Assembly: GCA_947447825.1 (NCBI GenBank)
Contig: CANFLL010000025.1
Coordinates: 1 to 47,912, forward strand
Direction: 5' to 3'
DNA from: Chitinophagaceae bacterium
GTDB lineage: Bacteria; Bacteroidota; Bacteroidia; Chitinophagales; Chitinophagaceae
DNA length: 47,912 nucleotides
In this document: positions 9,671 to 40,794 of the stretch, piece after piece
How the letters are laid out: every line of letters starts with the position of its first letter
Position numbering within the stretch: the first letter of the stretch is position 1
Position numbers and translations under genes: made by a program
Notes under the pieces: model-generated
The model's input: only the letters and a program-made list of their open reading frames with translations
The model's database searches: none
Told to the model about the DNA's origin: nothing

Positions 9671-9901
9671 TAGTGATTCGAATGCCTGAAGTAAAGACGA
9701 GCCTTTTAGCCCTCAATTAAACAATATTTAGCCTATATATGCCAATCATTAACCTTAGTATTTGAATACTAAGAGGTTTTGTTGTCAACTCATGCTCATA
9801 TATTAACATGTCTGCCTTTTTGAGGCTAATAACCGGCGTAGATATAGGCATATTTACCTCTAGTATTCGAATCACTAACACGCATTCGTTTAATAATGAT
9901 C
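9671..9901. repeat. Strongly degenerate 21-bp periodic array, about 11 units
   Basis: When cut into 21-bp units from 9671, the word (C/G/T)AAT falls at unit positions 10-13 in the units starting 9671, 9713, 9734, 9755, 9818 and 9860. The unit end is repeatedly close to TTAGCC or CTAAC (9692, 9713, 9734, 9839, 9860). Units 9671, 9755 and 9860 share TAGT..TTYGAAT. This is weaker than the arrays elsewhere in the window and was recognised by its matching period. Confidence 0.45.
9754..9773. repeat. Perfect 9-bp palindrome with 2-bp centre
   Basis: CTTAGTATT and AATACTAAG flank a TG centre. Related imperfect forms lie at 9671 (TAGTGATTCGAAT) and 9861 (TAGTATTCGAATCACTA). The shape suits a protein-binding dyad, but there is no adjacent regulator, so function is unknown. 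Confidence 0.5.
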
Positions 9902-10098
9902 TAGTGCAGTTTGTGTTTTCAATTGAAATAGTAGAATATAAAAGCGAAATAGAAGACTGTTGCGTTGAGTGTAAGAACAATATTTTCAGTACCAAAGCCT
10001 TTTCAAAACATCTGCACTAGGATACAATAGTGTGGTATATCTCATAAGGAATACTTATCAACTTTAGATTGTTCAGTTGCAACTTATTGCTCCTTTTT

Positions 10099-10722
10099 CT
10101 AGGAAAGCAGTTTCACTTCAGATAAACCACTAAAAGCATAGTGCCGGCCGGTTTCTAGCTCAATACATTCATATCTCTTTCTGCGTTTACCTAGTTTTCT
10201 AAACTTCCTACCATTATCAGTGATGAATTCTGCTCCATCGGGCACTTTATCCATAATGATGAAACCGGGGCGGAGGTTCTGGCTATAATTGCGTAGTACC
10301 ATCAATAATTCTGTTTCGCCATTAGCAGTGGCAGAAGGGTTTTTAATAGATTTTTGTAATGCCTTCTCTATTTCTGCTGGAAAAATCTTTTTGCTAACAA
10401 AGTCTTGTAATAATAAGCTGTAATTGTTTTTCCATTCAATGCCATGTGGTTCAACCTTGTTTTTATATTGTTCGTAAGTGAAAAGATGCGCCAATTCATG
10501 CAGAAAGGTAATCAGAAACTCGAACTTGTTGAGGTTGCCATTGATGCTTATTTTATGATTGCCCCAACCTCCTGCATGGCGATAATCGCCTAGAACACTT
10601 CTGCGTTTACGGGTTACTGTGAGGTGAATTTTATATTGATGAATATACGCAACAACAGGCTCAAACGAATTGTCGGGCAAATAGGCAGCAAGTGCCTGCA
10701 TTGGATGTTCTGTAGTGGACAT
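10099..10722 (-). CDS. SprT-like zinc-metalloprotease-fold protein
   Basis: A 207-residue protein with the SprT/Spartan-like core. Its zinc site is HELAH (75-79) with HGIEWK (93-98) supplying the next histidine, followed by a C-terminal basic region (about 170-185, KFRKLGKRRKRYECIE). SprT-like proteins are predicted proteases. The eukaryotic relative Spartan cuts DNA-protein crosslinks, while bacterial roles are largely unknown. The start ATG shares its A with the TAA stop of the upstream membrane gene (TAATG), so translation is coupled. No signal peptide; cytoplasmic. Confidence 0.88.
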   Translation of the reverse strand: MSTTEHPMQALAAYLPDNSFEPVVAYIHQYKIHLTVTRKRRSVLGDYRHAGGWGNHKISINGNLNKFEFLITFLHELAHLFTYEQYKNKVEPHGIEWKNNYSLLLQDFVSKKIFPAEIEKALQKSIKNPSATANGETELLMVLRNYSQNLRPGFIIMDKVPDGAEFITDNGRKFRKLGKRRKRYECIELETGRHYAFSGLSEVKLLS

Positions 10723-11114
10723 TACTGTTTTTTATTCAATAATAAAGCTGCTTTTACATCTACAATAGTGTATAAAACATATAATATCATTCCAGTCACG
10801 ATGGCTAGAATACTTTTTTCTTTACCCGCAATTACCAGATATACAACTGTGGCTATGCCCAAAACAAATAATTTGATGACAGTACTCCCCATTACACTTG
10901 CTGAAAAAACATTGGGATTGGGATTTTTTGCTGCTTTAAAGTGCATGGTTAGCGTGATGGCAGAGAGGGCAAATAATATCACATTACTAAAAATTACTAC
11001 AATATGATTGATGCCATATCCATCCCAAAGGCTAGGGAGTGCAACAAAAAGAACGGTTATTAAAACGAATAGTATAAAGGCAGGTAACAGTAATTTGTTG
11101 AAATTATTATTCAT
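10722..11114 (-). CDS. Four-helix membrane protein, AtpI-like by position
   Basis: A 130-residue integral membrane protein with four hydrophobic segments (about 8-28, 38-58, 72-92, 100-122) and short polar loops. It resembles the small membrane proteins next to F-type ATP synthase genes (AtpI-like), and an AtpZ-like gene lies 11 bp upstream. No a, b or c subunit genes follow. The next gene is sprT-like, joined by a TAATG overlap. The ATP synthase link is inferred from size, topology and the AtpZ neighbour. Confidence 0.7.
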   Translation of the reverse strand: MNNNFNKLLLPAFILFVLITVLFVALPSLWDGYGINHIVVIFSNVILFALSAITLTMHFKAAKNPNPNVFSASVMGSTVIKLFVLGIATVVYLVIAGKEKSILAIVTGMILYVLYTIVDVKAALLLNKKQ

Positions 11115-11125
11115 TGCAAATGAGC

Positions 11126-11323
11126 TTATTTAGAAGTATCTTTTATTACTTTAATGATGATGCCAATGATGACAAACATAGGCAAAACCCAAACAAGTAT
11201 TGGATTTGAGTTGAAGAAGTGTTGGTCAAGCCATTTTCCTGCAAAAAGTGTTAGTCCCAAACTGAAAAGCAGTTGAGTGACTAACCCTGTATATTGAAGT
11301 AAAATGTCTTTGTTAGATTTCAT
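11126..11323 (-). CDS. AtpZ/AtpI family protein
   Basis: A 65-residue protein with two transmembrane helices (about 12-30 and 40-58). The conserved pattern is GLTLFAGKWLDQHF after the first helix and VLPMFVIIGIIIKVIKDTSK at the end. This matches the F0F1-ATPase AtpZ/AtpI family, whose members are implicated in ATP synthase assembly or in Mg2+ or Ca2+ handling. It is followed by the four-helix protein, as is common in this phylum, but the core atp genes are not in the window. Confidence 0.82.
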   Translation of the reverse strand: MKSNKDILLQYTGLVTQLLFSLGLTLFAGKWLDQHFFNSNPILVWVLPMFVIIGIIIKVIKDTSK

Positions 11324-11333
11324 TTATTTTTAA

Positions 11334-11368
11334 GTCGAAAGTTGAAATTTAAAAGTTGAAAGTTAATA
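11334..11368. repeat. 7-bp tandem word run (GTYGAAA type)
   Basis: Five consecutive heptamers fill most of the 68-bp spacer between two minus-strand genes: GTCGAAA, GTTGAAA, TTTAAAA, GTTGAAA, GTTAATA. The same heptamer word recurs at 47720-47775. Confidence 0.7.
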
Positions 11369-11391
11369 AACCATTCATTAACAACAAACCA

Positions 11392-11787
11392 TTAGTCGTT
11401 GGTTACTTCTGTGGCGGGTATCTTAATGGGTACAGTATCAAGTTTTCCGGGGCTTGTGCCATTCAATACTTTCTTTACGCCAGTGAGGTATTGGTCATTG
11501 TATTTAATCGCTTGCTCAAGAGAATCAGTACGAATTTTCAATAGTTTAAATTGTGTTTCACTGTTTTTACTTCCATAACCAGGGATGTAATATTTCATAG
11601 GGGTAAGTACTATCAAAGCAACAGTAAAGCTTACTAATAAAACAAAAATGGAACTCAAGGCAATATAAACTGATAGTCTATCTAATTTAAAAGTAATTAA
11701 CTCCTCGTAGGTGTCATCGTTCATTATCACTAAACGATAGCGATTCCTGAGCCTTTTAAATGTTTCAGATGTATTTAATAATGACAT
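11392..11787 (-). CDS. Short single-pass membrane protein resembling the N-terminus of M23 peptidases
   Basis: This 131-residue protein begins with a basic segment (RLRNRYRLVIMNDDTYEELI), then one transmembrane helix (about 40-62) and a short periplasmic part with a YIPGYGS motif and a coiled-coil-like stretch. This is the layout of the N-terminus of Bacteroidota membrane-anchored M23 metallopeptidases, but the catalytic LytM domain with its HxH is absent. It ends in TEVTND with a normal stop. It is either a truncated derivative or an independent short family. It lies upstream of the AtpZ-like gene in the same orientation, 68 bp away. Confidence 0.7.
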   Translation of the reverse strand: MSLLNTSETFKRLRNRYRLVIMNDDTYEELITFKLDRLSVYIALSSIFVLLVSFTVALIVLTPMKYYIPGYGSKNSETQFKLLKIRTDSLEQAIKYNDQYLTGVKKVLNGTSPGKLDTVPIKIPATEVTND

Positions 11788-12132
11788 AAGGCGTAAAATT
11801 ATATGTTACCAATCAAAAGTAAAGAATTAATGTGTTAGTGGTTTGTTTGCCTAAAAGTTAGGTGCATATAAGTTTTGCGTATTTCAATTTTAATTCTTTA
11901 TCCTTTTACTCATTACCTATATTTTAACCTTCTACAATGCCCCGTGTTTTCTGAATTGATGACAGCAATATGCAATGGATTGATTATATAATTTAACAGT
12001 GGAGCTATAAGTATTTGTAACCTTCTTTAATCATACTACTACAAAAAATATTGCACAGAAGTAGTACACCCTCATTTAAGGGATTATATTCGCACCCCCC
12101 TGACAATACTTTTGCATCAAATAACAAATGAA
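11788..12132. other. Divergent intergenic region
   Basis: A 345-bp AT-rich gap between the minus-strand M23-like gene and the plus-strand lipoprotein gene. It should contain both promoters. Only the plus-strand -7 box at 12107 was recognised. No hairpin, repeat or gene was seen. Confidence 0.5.
12107..12114 (+). promoter_or_regulatory. Candidate -7 box for the lipoprotein-LruC operon
   Basis: TACTTTTG matches TAnnTTTG and lies 18 bp before the ATG at 12133, which would give a very short leader. No -33 TTTG at the right distance was found. Confidence 0.4.
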
Positions 12133-12540
12133 ATGAACAAATATTTTAAAAACATCGTGACCGGAAAAATTGTAATTGCAATGTGTTCTCTAGTTTTAAT
12201 TGGAACTTCTTGCAAAAAAGAAACAGCTCTAACTAACACAACTACTACATCCACTACTACTACACCTTTTGGAAGTATAGTTGCTACAAACTTTGGTTGG
12301 AGTAACGTAAATAAACTTACCCTAAACTTTGTAGGCCAGTCGGACAGAGACTACAACTCTATTTTAAAAGTAACTACTAGTGACAACAGCGTACTCTTCC
12401 AAAAATTGCAAAATGGAAGTGCAAATTTTTCAACTTCTTTTAATGTTCCATCAACTTACCATTCAATTACTGTTTCTTTTGGTGGAATTCAAAAAACCTT
12501 TATCACTAAAAATGGTACTGTTACCATGAACTTAAACTAA
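12133..12540 (+). CDS. Small secreted lipoprotein of unknown function
   Basis: A 135-residue protein with an N-terminal signal (MNKYFKNIVTGKIVIAMCS) and a lipobox-like LIGTSC followed by KKE. The lipidated Cys lies near residue 27. A Thr-rich linker (TNTTTTSTTTTP) leads to a beta-rich domain of about 90 residues with an Ig-like feel. ATG 12133 was preferred to an in-frame TTG seven codons earlier. It is 24 bp upstream of the LruC gene and probably cotranscribed, so it may partner that exported protein at the surface. No family was recognised. Confidence 0.8.
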   Translation: MNKYFKNIVTGKIVIAMCSLVLIGTSCKKETALTNTTTTSTTTTPFGSIVATNFGWSNVNKLTLNFVGQSDRDYNSILKVTTSDNSVLFQKLQNGSANFSTSFNVPSTYHSITVSFGGIQKTFITKNGTVTMNLN

Positions 12541-12564
12541 TCAATAACCACAAAACTTTTAACA

Positions 12565-14856
12565 ATGAAAATGATGAAATTGAGAAATATAAATAAGTCA
12601 GTAAAATTAGCAGCAAGCATAATAGCAATGGCATTTGCACAAGTTGCTTCTGCACAAGTGCCAACTGCACCTGCACAAGGATTTAATGTGTTTGTTAATG
12701 GTGGTGCAAGTTTTTATACTAGCGAAACCGAAGGGCCTGTTGCAATAGGTGGTGATCTTACAATTGGTGGTAGTTATGGTGTAAGTGTTCACAACAATTT
12801 TTCATACCAACTTAACAAAATAAATATTGGTTTACTAGTGGCTGGTAAAGTAAATTACAGCGGAGGAAATAGTTTGCAAGTATTGAACAATGGATATGTT
12901 CTTATTGGCAATCAGAATGGAAGTAAAGCATGGTATGCTGATCAGAACAATGCTTCTTCACCAATACGTATCACGCCAGGTAATGATTACAATGGTTCTC
13001 CAAACATCGCTCTATCTGCAAGTGCACCTAATCTTGGGGTTAGTGCTTCGGTAAATCCTATCTTTCAAGCTAGCCCTATAGATTTTGGTGCAGCATTTAC
13101 TACACTAAAATCTACTTCTACTAGTTTAAGTACTGCAACAGATAATGCTGTAATTTACAACTCACCTAATCAAGGTTCTGTGGCCATTGCACACAGCGGT
13201 ATTTCATCAAACTCTCAAATTTATATCACTGCTCTAAAAACGGGTACTACCTATTTAAATGTTTCTGGTGCTGATTTGAACAATTTTCAAAGTGTAACTT
13301 TCAATGGTCAAAAGCCTGATGCTACCCACCTTTTAGTTATAAATATCAATGCGCCGGGTGCTTTCACTTGGAATGCATATACTAATGGTGGAATAAGTGG
13401 CTCTAATACAGCTTACATTTTGTATAACTTTTACAACACCACTACATTAAATATTGCTGGTAATGGTTCGGTTGAAGGAACTGTTTTTGCTCCTTTTGCA
13501 AACATTTCTAAATCATCAAACAACAGTAACATAGAAGGTCAAGTAATTGCTCAGTCTTATGCTCAAACTGCTGGTGGTGAGATACATTCTTATAACTTCA
13601 ACTCAACTATCGATATTCCTGTTGTTAACACAATCCCTACTGTTTCTGCTACTAATTTTGTTTTCACTAGCACAGATGTTACTTCATTAAGCACTTCTTG
13701 GACTATTGGCAACGGTACAAACCGTGTGGTTATTGCTAGCACAAGCCCTATTACTGCATTTTCTTCATCTTCTTCCTTATTAAGTTCTGTAGCCACCGCT
13801 AGTTCAGTTTATGGTAAAGGTGCTGCGTTGGGTGGTGGTTATGTAGTTTATAATGGAACTGGTAATGCAGTTTCTGTTAGCGGTCTTACTGCTAATACAA
13901 AGTATTATTTCGCAGTTGTTGAGTACAATGCAAGCTCACCATATAATGCAACGCTTTCTTCCTATCTAACTGCCTCTGCCTCTACGCTTGCAGATACAGA
14001 TGGTGATGGAGTGGCAGATATTTACGACGCATATCCAAAAGATGCAACAAGGGCTTTCAACACTTCTTTCCCTGCAACTGGTTTTGGTACTTACCTTTTT
14101 GAAGATAACTGGCCAAGCAATGGTGATTATGATTTTAATGATTTAGTAATGGGCTATAAGTACGTTACTGTTACTAACGCAGCAAACCAAGTGGTTGAAC
14201 TTAAAGCTACTTTAGTGGCTACTGCAGCAGGTGCATTGTATAAGAATGCTTTTGGTATTCAGTTAGATGGTTTGTCTCCTAGTTTAGTAACAAGTGTTAC
14301 TGGTACAGATACCAAAGCCGCTTCTTGGTTATCAACAAATGCAAATGGAACAGAAGCAAAACAGACTTATGCTAACGTGATTGTTGTAGATGACATTTCC
14401 AGAGTATTGCCTACTAAGGATGGTAACCCAATTGTTAACACTATCATTGGTGCTCCTTATGTTGCACCAGATACCATCAATGTAGTAGTAACATTTACAC
14501 CTAATAAAGTTCTTCAATCAGACATTGCAATTAACCCTTATTTAATCGTTAACCAATATCGTGAAAGAGAAATTCACATGGCTAATAAAGTGCCTACAAG
14601 TATTGCTGCACCTGGATATTTTGGTTTGAATGATGATAAATCAGTTCCTGCTTCTGGTATATATTATGTAAATAAAAGTAATTTACCTTGGGCTTTAGAT
14701 ATTCCTGCTGCTATTCCTTATGCAATTGAAAGAGTTAATGTAACTGTGGCTTATCTTAACCTAGCCAATTGGGCTCAAAGTAGCGGAACTAATTTCACTG
14801 ATTGGTATCTAAATAACAGTGGAAACAGAAACGCTGATAATCTCTATAAACATTAA
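12565..14856 (+). CDS. Secreted LruC domain protein with choice-of-anchor A domain
   Basis: A 763-residue exported protein. A signal peptide ends at ASA-30. Residues of about 35-330 form a choice-of-anchor A domain (GFNVFVNGGASFYTSETEGP, AIGGDLTIGGSY, and VEGTVFAPFANISKSSNNSN near the end). A fibronectin-III-like module follows (about 350-470), then a calcium-binding DTDGDGVADIYDAYPKD repeat. A C-terminal LruC domain carries EDNWPSNGDYDFNDLVMGYK, which is diagnostic. Such proteins are surface or matrix proteins in Bacteroidota, but their ligand here is unknown. No T9SS sorting domain was recognised at the C-terminus. A strong terminator follows 28 bp later. Confidence 0.9.
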   Translation: MKMMKLRNINKSVKLAASIIAMAFAQVASAQVPTAPAQGFNVFVNGGASFYTSETEGPVAIGGDLTIGGSYGVSVHNNFSYQLNKINIGLLVAGKVNYSGGNSLQVLNNGYVLIGNQNGSKAWYADQNNASSPIRITPGNDYNGSPNIALSASAPNLGVSASVNPIFQASPIDFGAAFTTLKSTSTSLSTATDNAVIYNSPNQGSVAIAHSGISSNSQIYITALKTGTTYLNVSGADLNNFQSVTFNGQKPDATHLLVININAPGAFTWNAYTNGGISGSNTAYILYNFYNTTTLNIAGNGSVEGTVFAPFANISKSSNNSNIEGQVIAQSYAQTAGGEIHSYNFNSTIDIPVVNTIPTVSATNFVFTSTDVTSLSTSWTIGNGTNRVVIASTSPITAFSSSSSLLSSVATASSVYGKGAALGGGYVVYNGTGNAVSVSGLTANTKYYFAVVEYNASSPYNATLSSYLTASASTLADTDGDGVADIYDAYPKDATRAFNTSFPATGFGTYLFEDNWPSNGDYDFNDLVMGYKYVTVTNAANQVVELKATLVATAAGALYKNAFGIQLDGLSPSLVTSVTGTDTKAASWLSTNANGTEAKQTYANVIVVDDISRVLPTKDGNPIVNTIIGAPYVAPDTINVVVTFTPNKVLQSDIAINPYLIVNQYREREIHMANKVPTSIAAPGYFGLNDDKSVPASGIYYVNKSNLPWALDIPAAIPYAIERVNVTVAYLNLANWAQSSGTNFTDWYLNNSGNRNADNLYKH

Positions 14857-14884
14857 TAGTTAAGTAAACAATTTTTGATAGAGG

Positions 14885-14920
14885 AAAGGGTATTGTTACG
14901 AAAGTGACAGTACCCTTTTT
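14885..14920 (+). terminator. Strong intrinsic terminator of the LruC operon
   Basis: Arms 14885-14899 (AAAGGGTATTGTTAC) and 14904-14918 form a 15-bp stem with two G-T pairs and a GAAA tetraloop. The stem ends in TTTTT. The reverse reading begins with AAAAA, so it can also act on the minus strand. Confidence 0.92.
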
Positions 14921-15008: not shown

Positions 15009-15320
15009 ACCAACGTCATAGTTGACGCACCTTGTCACTTAGTTGCGACAACCAACGTCATAGTTAACGCACCTTGTCACTTAGTTGCGACTACTAACGT
15101 CATAGTTGACGCACCTTGTCACTTAGTTGCGACTACTAACGTCATAGTTGACGCACCTTGTCACTTAGTTGCGACAACCAACGTCATAGTTGACGCACCT
15201 TGTCACTTAGTTGCGACAACCAACGTCATAGTTGTTGCACCTTGTCACTTAGTTGCGACAACCAACGTCATAGTTGACGCACCTTGTCACTTAGTTGTGA
15301 CTACTAACGTCATAGTTGTC
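15009..15320. repeat. 42-bp tandem array, 7.4 copies, each unit two related 21-bp halves
   Basis: Full units start at 15009, 15051, 15093, 15135, 15177, 15219 and 15261, with a partial one at 15303. They differ at only a few positions: AACC or TACT at the junction, GACG/AACG/GTTG in the middle. Each unit contains CGTCA-TAGT-TGACG, a dyad with a 4-base loop. The two 21-bp halves share TAGTTG at the same offset (positions 11-16, with CA at 20-21), so TAGTTG recurs every 21 bp through the array. There are no unique spacers, so this is not CRISPR. No protein reading is plausible. Confidence 0.95.
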
Positions 15321-15617: not shown

Positions 15618-16044
15618 ATTTTACATTATTTTTAATTCGGTTGCAAGTATTGCTAGGAATGAAGTAGAAACAGTGACTAGATATGTCTATGTGAACTTTC
15701 TTATTATCATAAATAGAAAATAAATATTGCTTAAGTTCCCACGTTTCGAGCTTTTTACTTCTTCATAAAATAGATAATTAGAAATATGAAACCCAAGATT
15801 TTGTACTTAGTGGTTAAATACTCCTGAGTACATCTAAGTAATTCAATGCTGTTATGCATCCCAAAAATGAATGCTTTGGTTTATGAATATAACGTTTCCC
15901 TTCTTTTCGGAAAAGCTTGCGGACTCCCTAGTTAATTCACTCTCTACGGTATATAAAAAAAAGTGATGATTAGTTCATTTAAGCTATTTAATGAAATAAA
16001 AGCCCAAACCACTACATAAAGACTACTCTTGCATAAACATCATT
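15618..16044. other. Noncoding gap, AT-rich
   Basis: Upstream of two divergent genes. A TACTCTTG, one mismatch from the Bacteroidota -7 box, lies about 20 bp before the ATG at 16045. No repeat, hairpin or gene is visible. Confidence 0.4.
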
Positions 16045-20621: not shown

Positions 20622-21008
20622 GTATGAAAGATTTGTTTATTATGTTTACGATGATAAATTAGTTAGCATAGATTATTCTGAAATTTCGTTAAAAAGCGTC
20701 ATTTACTCAGTTGGGTCAGTCCACGACTCAACTGAATCTTTGGCTGACTCACTTGAGTCGTCGACTTACTTAGGTGAATCTTTTTCTGACTCAAGCGAAT
20801 CATTGACTGATTCGAGTGAATTTAAGCGTGATTCAATTGGATAAATGGAAGAAAGAGGATAAAAGAAAGTGCTCATTTTGATATTCTGTGTGTTTGGGAT
20901 AAGCTTCGAGTATGTTTAGAACTTTTTGAGAGTTGGAAAGGTTGCATAAAAGTTTATCACTTTTCCTTATGAAATTAGCGGTATTGCTCCTGAGGGATAA
21001 CAATCATT
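20622..21008. other. Gap upstream of the P-type ATPase
   Basis: 387 bp between two minus-strand genes. It holds the 21-bp array (20703-20840). The rest is AT-rich, with no recognised terminator for the AI-2E gene. A 74-codon plus-strand frame from 20620 runs across the array but is judged a by-product of the repeats. Confidence 0.5.
20703..20840. repeat. Degenerate 21-bp tandem array, 6.6 units, dyad-bearing
   Basis: Units start at 20703, 20724, 20745, 20766, 20787, 20808 and 20829. In every unit A is at position 3, T at 5 and G at 11, and most read TGACTCA..TGAATC over positions 1-15. The third unit contains the perfect dyad GACTCA-CT-TGAGTC. Sequence conservation is moderate, but the register is exact, with no insertion. 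It lies directly upstream of the P-type ATPase gene, so an operator role is possible. Confidence 0.88.
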
Positions 21009-22034
21009 TTAATCTGTCAAAGTAGAATTAGTAGCAAATTCGTCTAGGTATATTTTTATTAGAACAATAAGGTAGCTAATAAGTAAGGGACCAAATATTA
21101 AGCCTATGAAACCAAAAAGCTTTAACCCTACAATTACGCCAAACACTGTGATTAGTGGATGTACATTCCCAATTTTTTTCAATAGTCCGAGCCTAGATAT
21201 ATAGTCTACATTGCCTGTAATGACAAAGCTGTAAATCATTAATCCTGTAGCTGCAAGGTTTTGATTGGTGGCGTACATGAAAATAACCAAAGGAGTCCAA
21301 ACAACCATTGTTCCGATGAGGGGAAAAAAGGCTAGAACGCCCGTTACAAAACCCCATAAACCCCAATCTTTCAATCCGAATATCAAATATCCAATTGTAG
21401 CGAAAACTCCTTGCACCAAACATATAAGTGGTATTCCCAGTGCGTTTGCCCTTATCATTAAGTCTGTTTCTGTAGCTAGTTTATGAACATTCTGTGGTCT
21501 CAGAGGAATAATATGATTCAAATACTTTTCAATCATTTTGCCTCCACATAGTAAATAATACATTAAAAAAAACATAAGTAACAGATTGGCAAAAATGTTT
21601 ACTGTATTGTTTAAAAATGAGGGTAGATAGGCAAATAGGTTTTTAACAAACGATGTGGCATTTTCTGATGTAAAGAGCTCAATGCCTGTATATACTTCAA
21701 TTTTTTTTGAAAATTTTTCCAAGGTGCTAATGATTGCATCTTGGTTATTTACCAATAATGTTATTTTAGGTGAAACTATCAGTATTGAAAAATAAATTGG
21801 GATTGCTATCAAAACAACAAAACAAAGAATAAATAAAAGTGCGGTTATCCATTTGCTCCAATGTTGTTTTAGAGTCAAATTAAAATACCATTTTCTAGTA
21901 AGCATGTATAGCGTAACCCCTCCAAGTATTCCAGAAAGAAAGATCATTAATGTTGAAAAAAGTAATATGCCCAATGAAATGATTATTGATAAAAGCATTA
22001 CTTGCCTGAGCCGGTAGTTGAAAATATTTTTCAT
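21009..22034 (-). CDS. AI-2E family transporter (PerM/YdiK-like)
   Basis: A 341-residue polytopic membrane protein of the AI-2E exporter/PerM family. Two helix pairs flank a soluble coiled segment (about 100-150). The C-terminal half has the family pattern: LGIPLICLVQGVFATIGYLI, GFVTGVLAFFPLIGTMVVW and HPLITVFGVIVGLKLFGFIG, followed by GLIFGPLL. Members include the E. coli TqsA autoinducer-2 exporter, but most have unknown substrates. It is probably part of the surrounding stress and envelope gene run, without tight operon spacing (84 bp to the permease stop upstream). Confidence 0.9.
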   Translation of the reverse strand: MKNIFNYRLRQVMLLSIIISLGILLFSTLMIFLSGILGGVTLYMLTRKWYFNLTLKQHWSKWITALLFILCFVVLIAIPIYFSILIVSPKITLLVNNQDAIISTLEKFSKKIEVYTGIELFTSENATSFVKNLFAYLPSFLNNTVNIFANLLLMFFLMYYLLCGGKMIEKYLNHIIPLRPQNVHKLATETDLMIRANALGIPLICLVQGVFATIGYLIFGLKDWGLWGFVTGVLAFFPLIGTMVVWTPLVIFMYATNQNLAATGLMIYSFVITGNVDYISRLGLLKKIGNVHPLITVFGVIVGLKLFGFIGLIFGPLLISYLIVLIKIYLDEFATNSTLTD

Positions 22035-30110: not shown

Positions 30111-30124
30111 CATTAATAAGCAAT

Positions 30125-30793: not shown

Positions 30794-31402
30794 TTGTCAA
30801 TAATTTTATTTTGTAACTGATTTGTTACGATGTAAAGGTGGTTGTACTTCTAGGGTATGGTATTACATTATTGCTGAAAATAATTATAGTATTCATTGAT
30901 TGTGGAAATAAGCTTGTTAAAACTAGTAATTGTAGTATTCGTTAGTTTAAAACTTTGATTCTTACTTTTGACTAAAATGGTAAAACTGAAATTATAACAT
31001 TTAGCTTTTCGTGAATTACTGCTTTGATTTAATTCTACTTTGACACTTTAGAGTTTAAAATGGGTTCTTCGGCATAGTAAGTGGAATTGCTATGTAAAAC
31101 CTTCATTTTAGAAATATAATTTAGGTTAGGAATGCTTTTTTATATGGTTATTCTCACTTAATTTACATAGATGAATTAAAATAAACGCCATTTTTTTATT
31201 TTAATTATGGAGTATAATTTAACCGCTGAGTCCACTAAGGATTTCACAAAGAAAAATGCAAATGGAGAGGAAAGGAAGGAAAAAAAACGGCAAATCAAGT
31301 ACGCAAAGAAGGGAGTATAGAAGGGGCGTTTATTTTAAGGTGTCTAGATAGAATAAATTTCAATATAAAATTATTTAAAAGATTTTATGCCTCAAAGATA
31401 TT

Positions 31403-31592
31403 GTTGCCATTTATTTAAAAAAAGTTGCCGTTTATGGCAGAAAGGTTGCTCCTTATGAGTTAAAAAGAGCAACCTATTCAACAATGTTTGCCAACTTTGG
31501 CCAAAAAGGGGCAAACAACACCCCTTCCGGTTGCCGTTTATGAGTCATTCATTGCCCTTTTTGACTCATAAACGGCAATGCCATGACGATTT
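31403..31592. repeat. Degenerate 21-bp periodic array of nine units with hairpins
   Basis: Units start at 31403, 31424, 31445, 31466, 31487, 31508, 31530, 31551 and 31572, in register apart from one extra base before 31530. GC falls at unit positions 4-5 in all nine, and most read GTTGCC.TTTATG. The units make hairpins: TGCC/GGCA (31426-31439), GGTTGCTC/GAGCAACC (31444-31474), GTTTGCC/GGCAAAC (31486-31516) and a 17-bp one (31531-31578). Confidence 0.75.
31531..31578. repeat. 17-bp perfect inverted repeat
   Basis: TTGCCGTTTATGAGTCA (31531-31547) and its exact complement (31562-31578) flank a 14-nt loop. It has no T tract on either side, so it is not a standard terminator. It lies inside the 21-bp array. 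Confidence 0.85.
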
Positions 31593-31776
31593 GATTGAAC
31601 AATTTGAAGCAGAACGCCTAATAAACTAAGATAACCCCTGATATGGTGAGAATTAAATCTTTTTGTACAACTTATTAAAATGATTTTATTGAAAGGGATG
31701 ATTTACCTCCTTGATTTCAAATGAATACAGCCCCTCTTATCCGAGAATTGAATTTTATCTATATGTGCTACATTGA

Positions 31777-33498
31777 CTACTCGTCAAAATATAATTGCAC
31801 TTGTTTTAGTTGGGGTGTTTTACTAGTTGCTAAAATATTAACCCTAAATTCCTTTGCTACTATAGGTTTAAATGACTTGAAGTAGCCAGCACCAATAGTT
31901 TTGTCTTCAAAAATGGATTTCCATTCTTCTCCATCTTTATATTCTAGTTTAAATTCCTTTACAAATTTATCGAAAGTGCCAGCCTCAGTTATGGCTATAC
32001 TGCCAATACTTGTTGGTTTGCCTAAGTCTATTGCCAACCAACCAGTTTTTTCTCCCTCAATTGCCACCCAACCTTTTTTGCCGCCATCAAAAGCACCAGA
32101 TGCTTTAGATGATTCAGAAGAAGCAGTAGCATTTGCTGCTTTTCCTAATGAAGGTATTGGATCTTCGATTGTAATTTTTGGTTGCCCTTCAATTTGCACC
32201 TTTAATACTGTTGCAATTGTATCTTGAGTAAGAGAGGGGAGTTTAAATTCGACATATTTGCCCACTGTCTTATGCGTTATTTTTTGTTTTGGCAAAGCCA
32301 ATAAATTAGCTTTTACTACCTTATTATCCATTGGCACTCTTATGATACCATCGTTTGGCCATTGTAGGATATGAAAATAAAGTATATCACCTTTACGGGT
32401 ACACCTGCCAAATTTTAGGTAAGCAAAAGGACTAGATAATGTTCCATAAATAGATTCACCATTAGTTTTAAGCCAAGCACCCACCGTTTTTAATCTTGAA
32501 ACAGAAGGCTCAGGTATCTATCCTTCACTTGTAGGACCCACATTTAGTAAATAATTTCCTCCTTTAGAAGCAATGTCTATTAGATTCTGAATAATTACCT
32601 TACTACTTTTCCAATGGTTATCATAACTCTTAAAACCCCAAGTATCATTCATTGTCATGCAAGCTTCCCAGTTTTTTCCTGGAAACCCTGTTGCAGGAAT
32701 GTACTGTTCGGGCGTTTCCAAATCGCCTTTTACTCCTCCACCCAAACGATTATTGTAAATAAGGTCTGGGTATTGCTTCAAAACATCTAGTATTTGGTTT
32801 GCATATTCTTGCGTCATCCCTGTTGGTGTATCAAACCACAAAACAGTTGGATTATATTTAGCTAAAATTTCCTTTATCTGAGGAATCGCCTTAGTGGTTA
32901 GGTATTGGCTCATGCTGCCGTTCTGTACACTATCCCAATGTCCGCCATTTGCTGCGCCGCCGGGAGCTGTCCAATCTTGCGCTTGAGAATAATATAAACC
33001 AAACTTCATATTGTACTTTTTGCAAGCATTGGCTAATTCTTGAACAGCATCTCTTTTAAACGGAGTGGCATCAACTATATTAAAGGGATGCTCCGATTTA
33101 AACATGGCAAAACCATCGTGGTGTTTACTAGTTAGTATCATATATTTCATCCCCGCAGCCTTTGCTATTTTCACCCATTCTTCTGCGTTATATTTTACAG
33201 GATTGAACTGAGAAGCATAGTCTTTGTAAACATTTACAGGAATCTTACCTTTATTCATTATCCATTCTCCAATGCCATTAACCTTATTTTCATTGTAGAT
33301 TCCTGCCGGAACTGAATACAGTCCCCAGTGAATAAACATGCCAAAGCGAGCCTCTTTCCACCATTCCATTTTTGTTTCATTTAGTGTAGACTTTTCCGAT
33401 GTTCTTTCAGTACTCAAAATGGCAGTTTGCCCTTTCAGATTTGTTAACAATGGTGATATGATTATGGTGATAATTACTAAAGTGATTATTTTTCTCAT
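31777..33498 (-). pseudogene. Alpha-L-fucosidase (GH29) interrupted by an in-frame amber codon
   Basis: One continuous frame of 574 codons, broken only by TAG at 32518-32520. The first part (326 residues) has a signal or membrane N-terminus (2-22), GH29 motifs WWKEARFGMFIHWGLYSVP, HHDGF (126-130) and the likely nucleophile Asp223 (LWFDTP), and ends NYLLNVGPTSEG. The reading continues IPEPSVSRLKTVGAWLKTNG, the usual next GH29 segment, and ends in an F5/8-type (discoidin-like) module from about 490. Related enzymes usually have a hydrophobic residue at the stop position, so one substitution such as TTG to TAG explains it. The enzyme would remove terminal fucose. A recent mutation or a sequencing error is more likely than recoding. 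Confidence 0.9.
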
Positions 33499-35353: not shown

Positions 35354-35376
35354 AATACAGTAGATATATACTATGG

Positions 35377-36335: not shown

Positions 36336-36378
36336 AGTTTTATTCTTTAATCAATTTACTGCACCTACAACATCCCCT

Positions 36379-36426
36379 TAAAAGAAAAGGTTGAACACAT
36401 ATACATGTATTCAACCTTTTCTTTTA
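36379..36426 (-). terminator. Bidirectional terminator behind iscA
   Basis: A perfect 17-bp inverted repeat: arms 36379-36395 (core AAAAGGTTGAA) and 36410-36426, with a 14-nt loop. On the minus strand the second arm ends in CCTTTTCTTTTA. It closes the isc operon 15 bp after the iscA stop. Confidence 0.88.
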
Positions 36427-36440
36427 TAAATCTATGAAAT

Positions 36441-36791: not shown

Positions 36792-36802
36792 CTTGTTTCT
36801 GT

Positions 36803-36887
36803 TTTAAATTTTAAATTTTGTAATTTATATTTAGCATGAGGTTATAAATTAAGATAATCTCGGTTTAAAATACAAAATTCAAAACAA
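36803..36887. repeat. Two 7-bp word runs between iscU and iscA
   Basis: The first run is TTTAAAT, TTTAAAT, TTTGTAA, TTTATAT at 36803-36830. The second is AAAATAC, AAAATTC, AAAACAA at 36867-36887. They fill most of the 98-bp spacer. The motif class is the same as elsewhere in the window but more AT-rich, so simple composition could explain part of it. Confidence 0.5.
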
Positions 36888-36889
36888 AT

Positions 36890-37309
36890 CTAATGAACGC
36901 CTTTTTCTTCAAACACTAACTCTTCTAAACCGTTCTTCACACGGTAATCATTGATAGCTGCTTTGATGGCATCTTCTGCCAAAACAGAGCAGTGGATTTT
37001 AACTGGAGGAAGATTTAATTCTTCTACCAAATCCATGTTATCAATCGCCATTGCTTGATCTACAGTTTTTCCTTTCAACCATTCTGTTGCTAAAGAAGAT
37101 GAGGCAATAGCAGAACCACAACCAAATGTTTTAAACTTAGCATCTGTGATAACACCAGTTGAATCATCAACCTGAATTTGAAGACGCATAACATCACCGC
37201 ATTCTGGTGCGCCAACTAAACCAGTACCTACGCTTTTACTTCCTTTATCGAGTGTACCCACATTTTTTGGGTTACTATAATGATCAATTACTTTTTCTGA
37301 ATATGCCAT
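36890..37309 (-). CDS. iscU: Fe-S cluster assembly scaffold IscU
   Basis: IscU is the scaffold on which the 2Fe-2S cluster is built from IscS-derived sulfur. The three cysteine ligands are present: Cys37 (APECGD, with Asp39), Cys64 (FGCGSA) and Cys107 (IHCSVLAEDA). The chaperone recognition motif LPPVK is at 100-104. Length (139) is standard. It is 89 bp downstream of iscS. No hscBA or fdx follows in the window, only iscA. Confidence 0.96.
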   Translation of the reverse strand: MAYSEKVIDHYSNPKNVGTLDKGSKSVGTGLVGAPECGDVMRLQIQVDDSTGVITDAKFKTFGCGSAIASSSLATEWLKGKTVDQAMAIDNMDLVEELNLPPVKIHCSVLAEDAIKAAINDYRVKNGLEELVFEEKGVH

Positions 37310-37398
37310 GATGAATTTTTTATTAATGATTAAACTATAAAAATGACTTATAAAACCTTCTTCTTTTTTCTACACACCACTTGCCACTTTCGGCTTAT

Positions 37399-38616
37399 TT
37401 AATGGTGTGCCCATTCAATGCTGTTCAAATCGATACCTTCCTTATACATTTCCCAAAGCGGACTCATGTCTCTCAACTTAAGAACTGTATTTGTAATTTG
37501 CTCAATGGTGTAGTCTATTTGTTCTTCAGTAGTGAAACGTCCCAAACCAAAACGTAAAGAACTATGCGCTAAGTCATCACCCAAGCCTAAAGCTTTCAAT
37601 ACATAGCTAGGTTCAAGAGAGGCAGACGTGCAAGCAGAGCCAGAACTAAGGGCAATATTTTTGTTGAAACCCATTAGTAAACCTTCACCTTCTACGTGTT
37701 TAAAGGAAATGTTAGCCACATGAGGTAAACGATGTTCACGATTACCGTTAACATACGACTCTTCTATTTGCAACAAAGCATTCTCTAATTTATCTCTAAG
37801 CTTGCTCAATCGTGAAGCATCTTCTGCCATTTCTTTTTTAGCTATTTCGCAAGCCTTACCAAAACCTACAATGCCAGGAACATTCAGTGTGCCACTACGC
37901 ATTCCTCTTTCGTGGCCGCCACCGTCCATTTGGGCAGTAACTTTAACACGAGGGTTTTTACGACGAACATATAAAGCTCCAATTCCTTTTGGGCCATACA
38001 TTTTGTGAGCAGTGAAGGCCATTAAATCAATGCCATCTTTAATGACATCAACTGGTATTTTTCCTACTGCTTGAACTGCATCCGAAAAGAAAAGAACACC
38101 ATGTTTTTTGGCAATTGCAGCAATTTCTTTTATTGGCTGAACAACGCCAATTTCATTGTTAGCATACATAATTGCAACTAATATGGTTGTTGGTCTGATG
38201 GCTGCTTCTAATTCTGCTAAATCTATTAATCCATCTTCTTTCACTTCAAGGTAAGTAACTTCTCCACCCAATTTCTCAATGTGCTTGCAAGTATCCAAAA
38301 CAGCTTTGTGCTCGGTGGTAGCTGTAATAATATGGTTTCCTTTACTAGCATACATTTCATAAACACCCTTTATTGCTAGGTTATCACCTTCAGTTGCACC
38401 ACTTGTAAAAATAATTTCTTTGGGATCAGCACCTATCAAAGCCGCCACTTGCTCACGAGCATAATCCACAGCTTCTTCTGCTTCCCAACCAAATGGATGG
38501 TTGCGGCTAGCTGCATTGCCAAAGTGTTCTGTGAAATAAGGAATCATTGTTTCCAACACCCTTGGGTCCATTGGTGTTGTTGCATTATTGTCTAAATAAA
38601 CGGGAAGTTTCAACAT
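37399..38616 (-). CDS. iscS: Cysteine desulfurase IscS
   Basis: A PLP enzyme that removes sulfur from cysteine to feed Fe-S assembly and tRNA thiolation. It is 405 residues from the chosen ATG. It has the N-terminal [14 protein letters not shown], the PLP Lys205 ([11 protein letters not shown]), and the catalytic Cys329 in the long flexible loop [10 protein letters not shown], typical of group I (IscS-type) desulfurases. The frame opens 11 codons earlier, but [10 protein letters not shown] is the standard family start. It heads the iscS-iscU-iscA operon. No IscR-like regulator gene is near. Confidence 0.95.
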
Positions 38617-38730
38617 GTGTTTTTCTTTACTACTTAAGTTTAAACACAAACTTAGTGCAAAGGTTTTTAGTTTTCGTCAATTTTGGAGTCAGGAAACCTA
38701 ATTTTTCATATCTCGTAATCATAAAATACA

Positions 38731-38767
38731 AGAGGGCTAAAGCACAAATCTTATGCAATAGCCCTCT
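38731..38767 (-). terminator. Hairpin between the deacetylase and iscS
   Basis: AGAGGGCTA (38731-38739) pairs with TAGCCCTCT (38759-38767) over a 19-nt loop. On the minus strand it is followed by TGTATTTTATG. It lies about 110 bp past the deacetylase stop, so it may end that transcript before iscS. The T tract is poor. Confidence 0.5.
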
Positions 38768-38879
38768 AATTATTCCTTATTTGTATGCTTTTAAAATTGG
38801 CATTTCCTTTATAAACCTACTATCCAATTTTACTTAACTGCAATAATCAAATGAAATAAAGTATGCCTTTTTCAACCAA

Positions 38880-39716
38880 CTATTTCTTATTCAATGTATC
38901 CTTAACTGCGTGTTTTATTAATGGATAATGGTCAATGGTTTCAAATACATTCCTCGGGTCTTTTTTCAAGATTGAAATGAAACGAGCCAATGAATCAGCA
39001 TATTGCGGCTTTGCAAACATTCTGTCATGTGCCAATATCACAATTGCATTTGGAGCAACGGTAAGCTGGTCTTCTAGTTTATCATTCACTTCTTTTGCCA
39101 TTTGTTCTGCACCTTGCACGGGCGTGTTGCCCCCCTTGAAACGCCATTCCACATCCCAACCAATTACGCTATAACCAAGTGCATCTAGCTTTTTGTAAAC
39201 CTTTTCAGTAGAAGGTTGCCCTTTCATTTCTCCATCTAATACCCAAGAGTTACATCCAGGTAGTCTAATAATCTTCACAGGTACTTTTAACTCTTGTTCT
39301 GCATGTAAAAAGTCTTGCACTGCACTATCAGGCTGAGTATAGAATGACTTGTATTTATCCTTAAATCCATGCGAATAGCTATGATTTGCTAACAGAAACT
39401 CAGGGTAGCTATTGCGAATTTCATCTACCAAGCGTCTGCGTCTAAGGTCGAAAGCGTGCATTCCAACAGAAAAGAAAGTTGCTTTAACGCCTTCTTTATG
39501 GAAAACATCCTTACAAACCGTTGTTCCAGGAGGTTGAGGAGAATCATCCCAAGTTAAATAGATATATCGTTTACTGCTATCGAATTTTATGATGCTTCCG
39601 GGTATAGGTTTTGGTGCTTCTACTACTGCTTTAACTTCTTCTTTTTTAGGTTCGTTCTTGCAGCTTACAGCCATCAAAAGAACAGAAAGACAAAGTGTAC
39701 TTGTTAATAATTTCAT
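38880..39716 (-). CDS. Polysaccharide deacetylase (NodB-like) lipoprotein
   Basis: A 278-residue secreted lipoprotein. The signal ends at LLMAVSC with Cys19. The NodB domain runs from about 50 to 230: TWDDSP (Asp57/58, variant of TFDDGP), zinc histidines in NHSYSH (His112, His116), RLPG (151-154) and the last motif LAHD (His230). All catalytic motifs are present. Such enzymes deacetylate N-acetylated polysaccharides such as peptidoglycan, chitin or exopolysaccharide; the substrate is not clear. It stands alone upstream of iscS. Confidence 0.9.
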   Translation of the reverse strand: MKLLTSTLCLSVLLMAVSCKNEPKKEEVKAVVEAPKPIPGSIIKFDSSKRYIYLTWDDSPQPPGTTVCKDVFHKEGVKATFFSVGMHAFDLRRRRLVDEIRNSYPEFLLANHSYSHGFKDKYKSFYTQPDSAVQDFLHAEQELKVPVKIIRLPGCNSWVLDGEMKGQPSTEKVYKKLDALGYSVIGWDVEWRFKGGNTPVQGAEQMAKEVNDKLEDQLTVAPNAIVILAHDRMFAKPQYADSLARFISILKKDPRNVFETIDHYPLIKHAVKDTLNKK

Positions 39717-39856
39717 GGTAACTCGTATTAGTGATTTATCAAAAATAGGCTTTTAAAAAGCGTATTTTGGCAAAACAACCATACGTTGAAAACTATTTAG
39801 CTTTTCATTTATATGCACATTTTCATTTAAACTTGTGCAGAAGTGATGCTGAAAGG

Positions 39857-40303
39857 TCAGATTGCCCTTAAATATTTTGCAGGATTACCTGCATAAATAC
39901 CCGGCTTAGTTATGTTTTTAGTAACTACTGCTCCTGCGCCAATCACCACATTGTCACATATAGATACAGGCAATAGTGTTGCATTACTACCAATGGAAAC
40001 ATTGTTGCCAATGGTTGTTGGCTTCCAAAGTTGTTTATTGCCATTTGCTGGATGTCCTTCGCTAAACAAGTCATTTACAAACATTACTCCATGACCAATA
40101 AAACAATCATGGCCGATGGTTACAAGTTCGCAGATAAAACTGTGTGATTGAATTCGACATCTTTCGCCTATCAGTACTCCCTTTTGTATTTCAGTAAATG
40201 GTCCCACAAAACTGTTGCTACCTATTGTACAGCCATACAAGTTTGCGGGTTCCACCACCGTAACATTTTCCCCGAAGGACACATCTTTTATTGAAACATT
40301 CAT
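39857..40303 (-). CDS. Left-handed beta-helix acyltransferase (hexapeptide-repeat)
   Basis: A 148-residue protein made of hexapeptide repeats that form a left-handed beta-helix (for example IGSNSFVGPFTEI, VLIGERCRIQSHSF, TIGNNVSIGSNATLLP and VVIGAGAVVTKNI). It ends AGNPAKYLRAI, as in O-acetyl and N-acyltransferases of sugar nucleotides (WbbJ/PglD/WlbB-like). Such proteins act as trimers with acyl-CoA. The substrate is likely a polysaccharide precursor, but no pathway genes are adjacent. Confidence 0.85.
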   Translation of the reverse strand: MNVSIKDVSFGENVTVVEPANLYGCTIGSNSFVGPFTEIQKGVLIGERCRIQSHSFICELVTIGHDCFIGHGVMFVNDLFSEGHPANGNKQLWKPTTIGNNVSIGSNATLLPVSICDNVVIGAGAVVTKNITKPGIYAGNPAKYLRAI

Positions 40304-40310
40304 TGTAATT

Positions 40311-40352
40311 AGTTATGAATTATGAGCTATGAAATGAGAAATTTGGAATGTG
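40311..40352. repeat. 7-bp word run
   Basis: Consecutive heptamers: AGTTATG, AATTATG, AGCTATG, AAATGAG, AAATTTG, GAATGTG. The first three share the ending TATG. It lies just upstream of the acyltransferase start. Confidence 0.6.
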
Positions 40353-40584
40353 CGTTTTGAAACTATTTGCAAAAGTGGGCATCGCTATAATAATTCAGCA
40401 TTCAATCTGTAAAGTCATTAAGTATTTCTTATTGTTATTATTATATCTGAAAATGTAAATGACAAATGAAAATGACAAATATAGTGTTCTAGGATTCAGT
40501 TATAAACCAATTTTGTAACTATTCAGGGCGTATTTAACCATAAAGGTCACTAAGACTTTCAGCAGGAGCACAAGGATCACACAG

Positions 40585-40794
40585 TCCAAATATGTCTTCA
40601 CGCATACCAAATATGTCTTCACATATACCAAATATGTCTTCACACATACCAAATATGTCTTCACACATACCAAATACGACTTCACATATACCAAATATGT
40701 CTTCACACATACCAAATACGACTTCACACAGTCCAAATATGTCTTCACATATACCAAATACGACTTCACACAGTCCAAATACGACTTCACACAT
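40585..40794. repeat. Near-perfect 21-bp tandem array, ten units
   Basis: Ten units in exact register, starting every 21 bp from 40585. Two forms alternate irregularly: CCAAATATGTCTTCAC (copies 1-4, 6, 8) and CCAAATACGACTTCAC (copies 5, 7, 9, 10), with ends ACAT, ATAT, GCAT or ACAG. Most copies of the first form contain a TATGT/ACATA dyad. The 7-codon period leaves frames open on both strands, which is a by-product of the repeat. Such an array should vary in copy number between strains. Confidence 0.97.

Follow-up and report, generated by a model that had tools for sequence, protein, structure and literature searches.

Intergenic arrays of different sequence within one bacterial genome may all repeat every 21 bp, and this raises the question of what sets their common period. 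Such arrays are found in Chitinophagaceae bacterium (GCA_947447825.1, contig CANFLL010000025.1), of which we analysed positions 1 to 47,912 of the forward strand (47,912 nucleotides; the window). An initial annotation had described five unrelated arrays with a period of 21 or 42 bp, which we delimit and characterise as follows:

9671..9901, no strand assigned: array 1, degenerate 21-bp periodic stretch of about 11 units
15009..15320, + strand: array 2, 42-bp units composed of two related 21-bp halves, 7.4 copies (TRF)
20703..20842, + strand: array 3, degenerate member of a family with the unit GACTCA-NN-TGAGTC plus a 7-bp spacer
31403..31592, + strand: array 4, degenerate 21-bp array with GTTGCC-type units
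40577..40794, + strand: array 5, 21-bp units, 10.4 copies

A common 21-bp period in the window and the genome

When autocorrelation at lags 5-69 was compared with 300 dinucleotide shuffles per array, the best lag was 21 or 42 in all five arrays, the 95th percentile of the shuffles for the best lag being 3.1-3.3. The strongest signals came from array 2 (15009-15320; z 23.6 at lag 42 and 8.2 at lag 21) and array 5 (40585-40794; 16.8 and 16.0, respectively), followed at lag 21 by array 3 (8.7 over 20703-20840) and array 4 (5.0, or 5.6 in the genome scan described below). Array 1 (9671-9901) was marginal, with z 4.2 at lag 21, the best of lags 5-69, and 3.2 at lag 42. TRF independently detected arrays 2, 3 and 5 and missed arrays 1 and 4. 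The five periodic arrays of the initial annotation were thus confirmed, array 1 only marginally.

The same annotation had proposed an autocorrelation check of the genome and its relatives. We scanned 41 stretches of the home genome (847 kb, 18% of the genome, mainly the opening 20-40 kb of the longest contigs); the sample was non-random in that three stretches, the window included, were picked for known arrays, and the open reading frame mask that separated intergenic from coding DNA was crude. At the threshold of the first scan (z ≥ 4.5), four of the five window arrays were recovered, the weak array 1 being missed. Exact lags of 21, 42 or 63 accounted for 57 of 100 intergenic peaks, and 74 fell inside 20-22, 41-43 or 62-65, while 17 were at lag 14. 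Three replicates of randomised intergenic DNA yielded 12 peaks altogether, of which one was at 21, 42 or 63; among coding peaks the corresponding number was 32 of 172, the remainder lying mostly over multiples of 3. Genus relatives of the home genome also showed periodicity of the 21-bp type.

The 57 peaks corresponded to 54 arrays, which sorted into 31 families or singletons, with three of the 54 being in truth 7-bp repeats that also score at 21. Together with the relatives, 81 arrays formed 54 clusters, only two of which spanned genomes. A test at lags 7, 14, 28 and 35 assigned 6 of the 81 to the 7-bp type, including the three of the home genome and both arrays of relative G012, and two arrays from outside the genus were 7-bp repeats by eye. 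The 21/42-bp periodicity is therefore real and genome-wide, and is common to about 30 sequence families in the 18% sample. Register within an array needs no selection, because duplication or deletion between repeats preserves it; the point to be explained is that about 30 families have one period.

A coding origin, in which 21 bp would be a seven-residue repeat, was considered and rejected. Open reading frames do run across arrays 3 and 5, and the mean number of open frames per array was 1.38, against 1.10 after column permutation. However, an open frame was present in 42 of 65 arrays where 39.7 were expected, intergenic periods of 41, 62, 64 and 65 bp occurred as well in the 847-kb scan, and the one array-5 frame tested had no Pfam match, which together make this origin highly improbable. 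Another possibility is intrinsically curved DNA, in which a two-turn repeat sums local bends and selection keeps the bend rather than the sequence. Predicted curvature was indeed 0.67 deg/bp in arrays, whereas 455 intergenic windows free of arrays gave 0.36; the control 90th percentile was exceeded by 39 of 81 arrays, and the AA/TT 10.5-bp harmonic was the most raised. Yet column-permuted arrays with the same period reached 0.61, and only 43 of 81 arrays exceeded their own permuted mean. The order inside the unit thus appears untuned for bending, and we consider curvature an unlikely cause.

Dyads in register

The initial annotation had also noted that several units carry dyads. When the best dyad centre was compared with that of column-permuted arrays (p ≤ 0.05), 37 of 81 arrays had a significant dyad and 44 did not, the full 168-bp scan window being used for arrays that extended over <105 bp; in a repeat of the test the numbers were 35 of 75 once the 7-bp type was set aside and 1 of 6 for that type. 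Window arrays 2 (p 0.017), 3 and 5 passed, array 4 failed (p 0.28), and array 1 was outside the tested set. About half of the arrays hence carry a dyad with a common centre across their units. Watson-Crick pairs numbered 1718 versus 1607 when right arms were permuted between units, giving a z of 6.3 that is inflated by co-duplicated units; this comparison used a fresh selection of 37 arrays by the same procedure, and the excess was seen in 22 of them. A general test of paired against unpaired columns was weak: the null mean was exceeded in 43 of 65 arrays, and z averaged 0.48. In family 5, where the pattern recovered 50 units from seven arrays, with misses uncounted, the arms showed no association and the pair lay outside the 12 strongest column associations.

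Units that fold as dyads could represent RNA or single-strand hairpins acting in transcripts through stability, termination or as decoys. On the sense strand, however, G-U mismatches were not in excess (94 versus 112 A-C), which points to DNA rather than RNA as the level of dyad pairing. Convergent gaps were not enriched either (5 of 54 arrays versus 37 of 235 gaps ≥200 bp), and the window arrays had no Rfam match. Arm sequences varied among families and even between the halves of one 42-bp array, so a single protein could not read all of them by sequence.

Mobile elements carrying the arrays

Array 3 belongs to a miniature inverted-repeat element (MITE) of ~725 bp with inverted ends, presumably too short for a full transposase gene. 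Dispersed elements were also found around arrays 4 and 5:

20844..21030, + strand: right flank of the array-3 MITE, 87% identity to the right flank of another copy
21015-21029: exact terminal inverted repeat of the array-3 MITE
31031..31062, + strand: MITE remnant of the array-3 type, left terminal inverted repeat and first bases
31168..31626, + strand: second dispersed element, holding array 4 and sitting within the MITE remnant
31670..31725, + strand: MITE left-flank piece after array 4, 79% to flank-query positions 137-193
31782..31796, − strand: degenerate right terminal repeat of the MITE remnant around array 4 (3 mismatches; at ≤3 mismatches the repeat has 93 matches in 847 kb, and chance matches are common)
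40513..40577, + strand: first ~60 bp of the "CAP" element (~150 bp in whole), abutting array 5

The left flank of the array-3 MITE was not found in the window copy. MITE flanks were present at 12 of 16 fetched home-genome loci, and both ends (AATTCTACTTTGACA / TGTCAAAGTAGAATT) at eight; the ends inspected by eye showed no consistent target-site duplication. The left 260 bp had at least 38 matches at at least 36 places, at least 23 of them nearly full length, among the 40 of 77 candidates that were scored. The array-3 family thus has the terminal inverted repeats, leader, tail and high copy number of a MITE. Copies of the element holding array 4, some complete and others partial, lie at other places in the genome with 72-95% identity (e.g. 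C30, C12, C39, C41, C16 and C48); as 40 of 153 candidates were scored, this is a lower bound.

The initial annotation had suggested comparing related strains to see whether arrays gain and lose whole units. For six near relatives, DNA matches to the window (≥100 bp) were confined to the ProRS gene, and MITE copies were therefore compared in place of strains. We used 19 copies picked by both flank anchors (L256, L265, L271, L278, L280 and L285, with parts of both, were unused). Exactly 5, 7, 9, 10 or 11 sites were present in 17 of them; in L287 and L289 the left anchor put the count at 6.57 and 7.57 sites. This shows that MITE copies differ by whole 21-bp units.

Other arrays were less clearly carried. 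Array 2 had two more matches in the home genome and two in a sister species, and array 5 at least 12 in the home genome, itself counted. In the sampled stretches, a minor part of the genome, arrays 1, 2 and 5 had no common flanks among the matches listed, except at the left edge of array 5 and over 50 bp (15995-16044); within those stretches the three arrays did not show the terminal inverted repeats, leader, tail and many copies of a minisatellite-bearing MITE. A flank matching the flank of another array was found for 24 of 54 arrays versus 6-10 of 54 array-free gaps. Terminal inverted repeats around arrays scored ≥14 in 7 of 76 cases versus 2% of mismatched flanks, and at ≥12 were no different (12% versus 11%), which suggests that most arrays are without visible terminal inverted repeats. 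CAP had 35 matches in 847 kb and was rejected as a general carrier, as 13 of the 35 were near an array compared with 25% of random positions, a weak association. A link with RAYTs, Y1 transposases associated with palindromes that have a GTAG or CGTC tag beside them, was not visible in copy numbers: Y1 transposases (PF01797) had 5 matches in the home genome, within the range of 0-9 in 26 relatives. The description of five unrelated arrays consequently has to be amended, as array 3 is part of a mobile family and dispersed repeats lie next to arrays 4 and 5.

Such linkage to dispersed repeats would also be expected of selfish or neutral minisatellites, which MITEs and slippage would spread and lengthen, hairpin template switching would furnish with dyads, and slippage or DNA-packing geometry would give their period, with no benefit to the cell. 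We regard this as the main alternative, possible though not probable. Simple slippage does not predict one period in about 30 families; further evidence on both sides is given in the next two sections.

A conserved core within the unit

The unit of the array-3 family consists of a palindrome of 14 bp, GACTCA-NN-TGAGTC, and a 7-bp spacer after it. Among nine copies with ten sites (L277 was omitted from the ten-copy comparison), pairwise identity was 0.981 for the inner arms (TCA/TGA), 0.850 for the outer arms, 0.778 for the spacers, 0.759 for the 2-bp gap, and 0.817 and 0.831 for the flanks; the left-flank value had been biased to 0.778 by L254, whose left flank is incomplete, and rose to 0.817 with this copy omitted. 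Invariant columns made up 44 of 48 in the inner arms versus 19 of 49 in the spacers. The core TCA-NN-TGA of this MITE family is thus almost invariant, and the spacers drift like flanks. The outer arms were barely above the flanks in conservation (0.850 versus 0.817-0.831), and their diversity was 0.149 compared with 0.131 for the right flank over its initial 36 bp. Homogenisation from unit to unit could also reduce arm diversity.

A half-site core far more conserved than the spacers and flanks of the same element argues against a purely selfish or neutral origin. On the other hand, spacer 7-mers were present in both orientations within one array, as loop flips would give, and solo sites were absent: all 40 near-exact sites of the 847-kb sample sit in arrays, a distribution unlike that of an ordinary regulon. 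With respect to RNA hairpins, the side of the hairpin adjoining the 7-bp loop was the more variable, and the conserved core flanks the 2-bp gap, which is too short for a hairpin loop. Given also the lack of wobble preference, convergent-gap enrichment and Rfam matches, RNA hairpins are not favoured, and we assign them a small likelihood.

Relatives and turnover

TGAGTC-N7-GACTCA had 110 matches in the home genome, 5 each in relatives G001 and G010 and 1 in G006, and none in nine other genus relatives or in 14 genomes of other genera. In G001 and G010, matches on the same contig were multiples of 21 bp apart and had other spacers. TGAGTC/GACTCA half-sites, which mark the largest family only, therefore recur in three sister species; their recurrence with other spacers is not what selfish or neutral spread would suggest. 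No near-exact site at all was found in the relatives' stretches (1033 kb).

Position was poorly conserved. At orthologous gaps an array was present in one of six relatives for array 3 (weak), one of nine for array 5, one of nine for array 4 and none of four for array 2, and where present it had another sequence; array 1 was outside this comparison. Conserved position at orthologous genes was thus rejected, since sister species rarely have an array in the corresponding place. Such fast turnover at the gaps of arrays 2-5 is consistent with selfish or neutral minisatellites.

Relation to known repeats and a proposed model

The initial annotation knew of no named repeat class that fits, a statement that published work overturns. 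Non-coding satellites of constant size (20-21 nt, some 40-41 nt) and variable sequence occur in many bacteria, with several unrelated families per genome that are mostly species-specific and a short characteristic sequence common to most repeats of a species (Subirana and Messeguer, PMC8161180). These authors remark on two helical turns, propose proteins or small RNAs, and report that short sequences and their reverse often occur within one 52-nt repeat; the string "palindrom" has a count of 0 in their paper, and the reason for the ~21-nt unit in unrelated satellites is an open question in print (PMC8161180). The present arrays have the constant 20-21-nt non-coding unit and the several unrelated, mostly species-specific families of those satellites. 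They differ in coming from Chitinophagaceae, in the in-register dyads that many units form, in a resolved 14-bp site whose core is conserved, and in one family that lies inside a MITE whose copies show whole-unit change. BrickBuilt and 464/PgRS of Porphyromonas gingivalis are intergenic MITEs with terminal inverted repeats and an internal minisatellite of 23 or 41 nt; BrickBuilt is a 23-nt satellite in a MITE with leader and tail, and its repeat number varies among copies (PMC4596501). Like these, the array-3 element is a TIR-bounded intergenic MITE of Bacteroidota with an internal minisatellite, but its sequence and unit length are different, its unit joins a palindrome, the core of which is constrained, to a spacer, and the genome has many satellite families with a single period. 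REP and BIME elements are short intergenic palindromes, sometimes clustered and possibly mobilised in trans by RAYTs (PMC3733652). Unlike them, we observed strict 21-bp tandem arrays of many sequences and few Y1 transposases. Iteron and operator arrays bound by protein dimers likewise repeat a site directly, about every two turns; the present arrays differ from them in being dispersed over the genome, and the role of the site is predicted from core conservation. What is new here is the dyads in register, the MITE carrier, the resolved site and core, and the half-sites in sister species; the arrays show a known but unexplained repeat type in a more sharply defined form.

We propose, at about an even chance of being right, that these are MITE-spread minisatellites of double-stranded sites for protein dimers at two-turn pitch, the core being kept by purifying selection. 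The arrays would be intergenic minisatellites whose unit is fixed at 21 bp, or at 42 bp where it comprises two diverged units, part of them carried over the genome by miniature transposable elements. In the array-3 family each unit would hold one double-stranded dimer site, GACTCA-NN-TGAGTC, and then the 7-bp spacer, so that putative dimers would be spaced by two helical turns and share one face of the DNA. Arrays would grow and shrink by slippage or unequal exchange between units, and purifying selection by a putative protein of the genus would keep TCA-NN-TGA while spacers drift. This site model is drawn from the array-3 MITE family and may extend to other families. The reading of the arrays as phased sites is supported for that family; overall, the earlier interpretation is partly supported and its observation confirmed.

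More speculatively, and with considerable doubt, a dimeric, array-forming protein of the genus may use MITE-spread palindromic rows with a strict two-turn pitch as dispersed sites for nucleoid organisation or segregation, and constant-size satellites of other bacteria may be of the same kind with other proteins. For the shared ~21-nt unit, this genome offers several handles: the site is defined and its core constrained, a mobile carrier has matches at at least 36 places, copies of the carrier differ by whole units, and sister species have the same half-sites.

Periodicity in the window and in the home genome

The initial annotation had noted that five unrelated intergenic arrays in the window repeat every 21 or 42 bp:

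9671-9901: array 1
15009-15320: array 2 (42-bp units)
20703-20840: array 3
31403-31592: array 4
40585-40794: array 5

Compared with dinucleotide shuffles, this was borne out for all five, the strongest lag among those from 5 to about 69 being 21 or 42 bp. Periodicity was strong in arrays 2, 3 and 5, moderate in array 4 and marginal in array 1, which the genome scan did not recover as a peak. As contig 25, the window belongs to a 4.65-Mb genome assembled in 187 contigs (hereafter the home genome), and its prolyl-tRNA synthetase showed 95-96% identity to those of three uncultured Chitinophagaceae. The window also contained a 28-bp tandem duplication not of the 21-bp class (30856-30911) and, close to the contig edge, a match to a group II intron domain in Rfam (129-203).

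The genome scan (168-bp windows, lags 8-70, peak cut-off z >= 4.5) covered 847 kb in 41 stretches, one of them the window; most were the opening 20-40 kb of the longest contigs, and 3 of the 41 were picked for known arrays. We found that the 21/42-bp pattern is real and genome-wide. Among 100 intergenic peaks, 57 were at lags 21 (31), 42 (24) or 63 (2), as against 1 of 12 (at lag 42) in three replicates of Markov-resampled intergenic DNA, which is the excess over randomised controls that had been proposed as a check. Within the ranges 20-22, 41-43 or 62-65, the count was 74 of 100. In coding DNA, 32 of 172 peaks were at 21/42/63 and the remainder were mostly scattered over multiples of three. 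A separate class of 7/14-bp repeats was often located close to gene ends (for example, window 47721-47774 and 11332-11366), and lag 14 was seen in 17 of the 100 intergenic peaks.

Distribution among relatives and other genera

In six relatives from the same genus, 28 of 58 intergenic peaks were at 21/42/63 (G011, 9/16; G006, 6/11; G007, 4/5; G004, 5/14; G012, 3/11; G010, 1/1). Repeats of 7 bp can also score at lag 21 and mimic 21-bp arrays. A test at lags 7, 14, 28 and 35 flagged as this 7-bp type 3 of 54 home-genome arrays, 1 of 5 in G004 and both arrays kept in G012, and therefore G012 gives no support for the 21-bp period. Twelve genomes of other genera yielded 2 of 5 peaks at 21/42/63, and both of these arrays resembled 7-bp repeats by eye. 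Among 80 named loci surrounding the synthetase gene (z >= 5), 6 arrays were found in the 35 nearest and 2 in the 45 further ones, one of the latter two (L215) being itself labelled as Chitinophagaceae. Elsewhere, the 21-bp trait is thus sporadic. Periods of 41 and 62-65 were recurrent in the genus, and one sister species had a 41-bp array close to the P-type ATPase gene (L106:5301-5472). Stretches of G006, another sister species, had 17 lag-8 peaks within putative coding DNA.

Array families, gene context and carriers

The 54 home-genome arrays formed 31 families or singletons, and when all 81 arrays were clustered, 2 of 54 clusters spanned genomes. Array size was similar throughout (median 8.6 units, middle half 8-10). 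With regard to gene context, 30 of the 54 arrays were in co-directional, 14 in divergent and 5 in convergent gaps, with 5 at edges; comparison gaps of at least 200 bp numbered 133, 65 and 37, respectively. A flank matching that of another array was found for 24 of 54 arrays, versus 6-10 of 54 when array-free gaps were taken in the same number. Carriers in the window were as follows:

20844-21030: right half and right end of the MITE, an element of ~725 bp that carries array 3
31168-31626: dispersed element holding array 4, with copies elsewhere
31031 to about 31796: remnant of an array-3-type MITE enclosing the array-4 element

The left half of the MITE was missing from the window copy at array 3. 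The termini of the element are AATTCTACTTTGACA and the reverse complement thereof, and no target duplication was evident at its ends. Its flanks were common to 12 of 16 home-genome loci fetched, with both ends in 8 of the 12; L255 had a flank fragment only, and L258, L259 and L264 were without these flanks. The left 260 bp had at least 38 matches at at least 36 places in the home genome, at least 23 of them nearly full length, these counts being lower bounds because 40 of 77 candidates were scored. In 12 other genomes searched, weak partial matches were found in G004 and G003 only. The half-sites of array 3, TGAGTC-N7-GACTCA, occurred 110 times in the home genome, 5 times each in the sister species G001 and G010 and once in G006; a search of the 9 remaining relatives in the genus and of 14 genomes from other genera gave none.

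Array 5 adjoins the first 60 bp of CAP, a short dispersed element of ~150 bp, a copy of which was inserted in a 725-bp MITE copy (L270:242-404) with ~8 bp of target duplicated. Elsewhere, a 42-bp array was flanked by two inverted CAP copies of 148 bp (L018:7138-8271). Array 5 had 12 matches in the home genome, itself included; seven copies of this family shared no flanks within 90 bp on either side among the matches listed, and one of them (L030) had a CAP piece ~170 bp from the array. Arrays 1 and 2 had no clear carrier within the stretches compared.

Dyads

For each of the 81 arrays, the best dyad centre modulo 21 was compared with that after permutation of the 21 columns, which preserves repeat and composition. 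Dyads, which had been noted initially in several units, were in register at p <= 0.05 in 37 of 81 arrays (25 of these at p <= 0.01); without the 7-bp type, the home genome gave 28 of 51 and the full set 35 of 75. Because related arrays were treated as independent, the combined Fisher p of 6e-31 over the 81 arrays is too small. In 37 arrays selected anew, all but one identical to the earlier 37, there were 1718 within-unit pairs versus 1607 after right arms were permuted among units, with an excess in 22 of 37. This excess was greatest in those 42-bp arrays in which the halves carry differing arms around a shared centre (L153, L166, L006, L137). Array L164 of G007 had AACT..AGTT arms in some units, AACC..GGTT in others and mismatches in some. 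Arm mismatches showed no G-U preference, either in all (148 G-T versus 196 A-C) or with co-directional gaps read on the sense strand (94 versus 112).

Site structure and constraint in the MITE family

If units are counted from the ends of the arrays, each one in this family is a 14-bp palindrome, GACTCA-NN-TGAGTC, followed by a 7-bp spacer, with spacers in both orientations within one array. All 40 near-exact palindromes in the 847 kb were inside arrays, and no solo sites were found there. The number of sites between fixed flank anchors was exactly 5, 7, 9, 10 or 11 in 17 of 19 MITE copies, the other two being fractional because of the left anchor; this answers the question, raised at the outset, of whether whole units are gained and lost. 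Identity at homologous positions in nine ten-site copies is listed below.

Identity among nine ten-site MITE copies
Inner arms (TCA/TGA): 0.981
Outer arms: 0.850
Spacers: 0.778
Gap: 0.759
The two flanks: 0.817 and 0.831

A ten-copy version, which includes one copy with an incomplete left flank, gave 0.917 for pooled arms. Invariant columns amounted to 44 of 48 in the inner arm and 19 of 49 in the spacer, and arms differed from spacers at p 1.6e-5 with columns taken as independent. Conservation of the outer arms did not exceed that of the right flank over its first 36 bp (diversity 0.149 versus 0.131). Since inner arms were near-invariant and outer arms resembled the flank, the constraint is located in the core. 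Unit exchange could also contribute to this signal. Arrays of G001 and G010 retained the half-sites with different spacers; the MITE end was absent from all four sister-species loci, and the unit reader found no array at L269 of G006. Judged from these sequences, the core around the 2-bp gap fits better with a putative protein dimer on double-stranded DNA than with a hairpin.

Relation to known repeats

The authors of a study on constant-size bacterial satellites had reportedly described 22/44-nt and 52-nt satellites in an earlier paper. It had initially been stated that no named repeat class fits the window arrays; satellites of 20-21 nt with constant size and variable sequence are already in print, with two helical turns remarked upon (PMC8161180), and a count of the term "palindrom" in that paper gives 0. 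BrickBuilt repeats are described in PMC4596501, and further literature includes PMC3733652, PMC9426551 and PMC8625621. The absence of prior satellite reports for Chitinophagaceae/Bacteroidetes carries little weight, the search having been narrow and without most subscription journals. The initial reading of the arrays as phased sites holds in part: two-turn arrays of putative sites are supported for one family, the MITE family, and are a possible reading for the remaining families. The pattern as a whole is a variant, itself new, of a kind of repeat already known.
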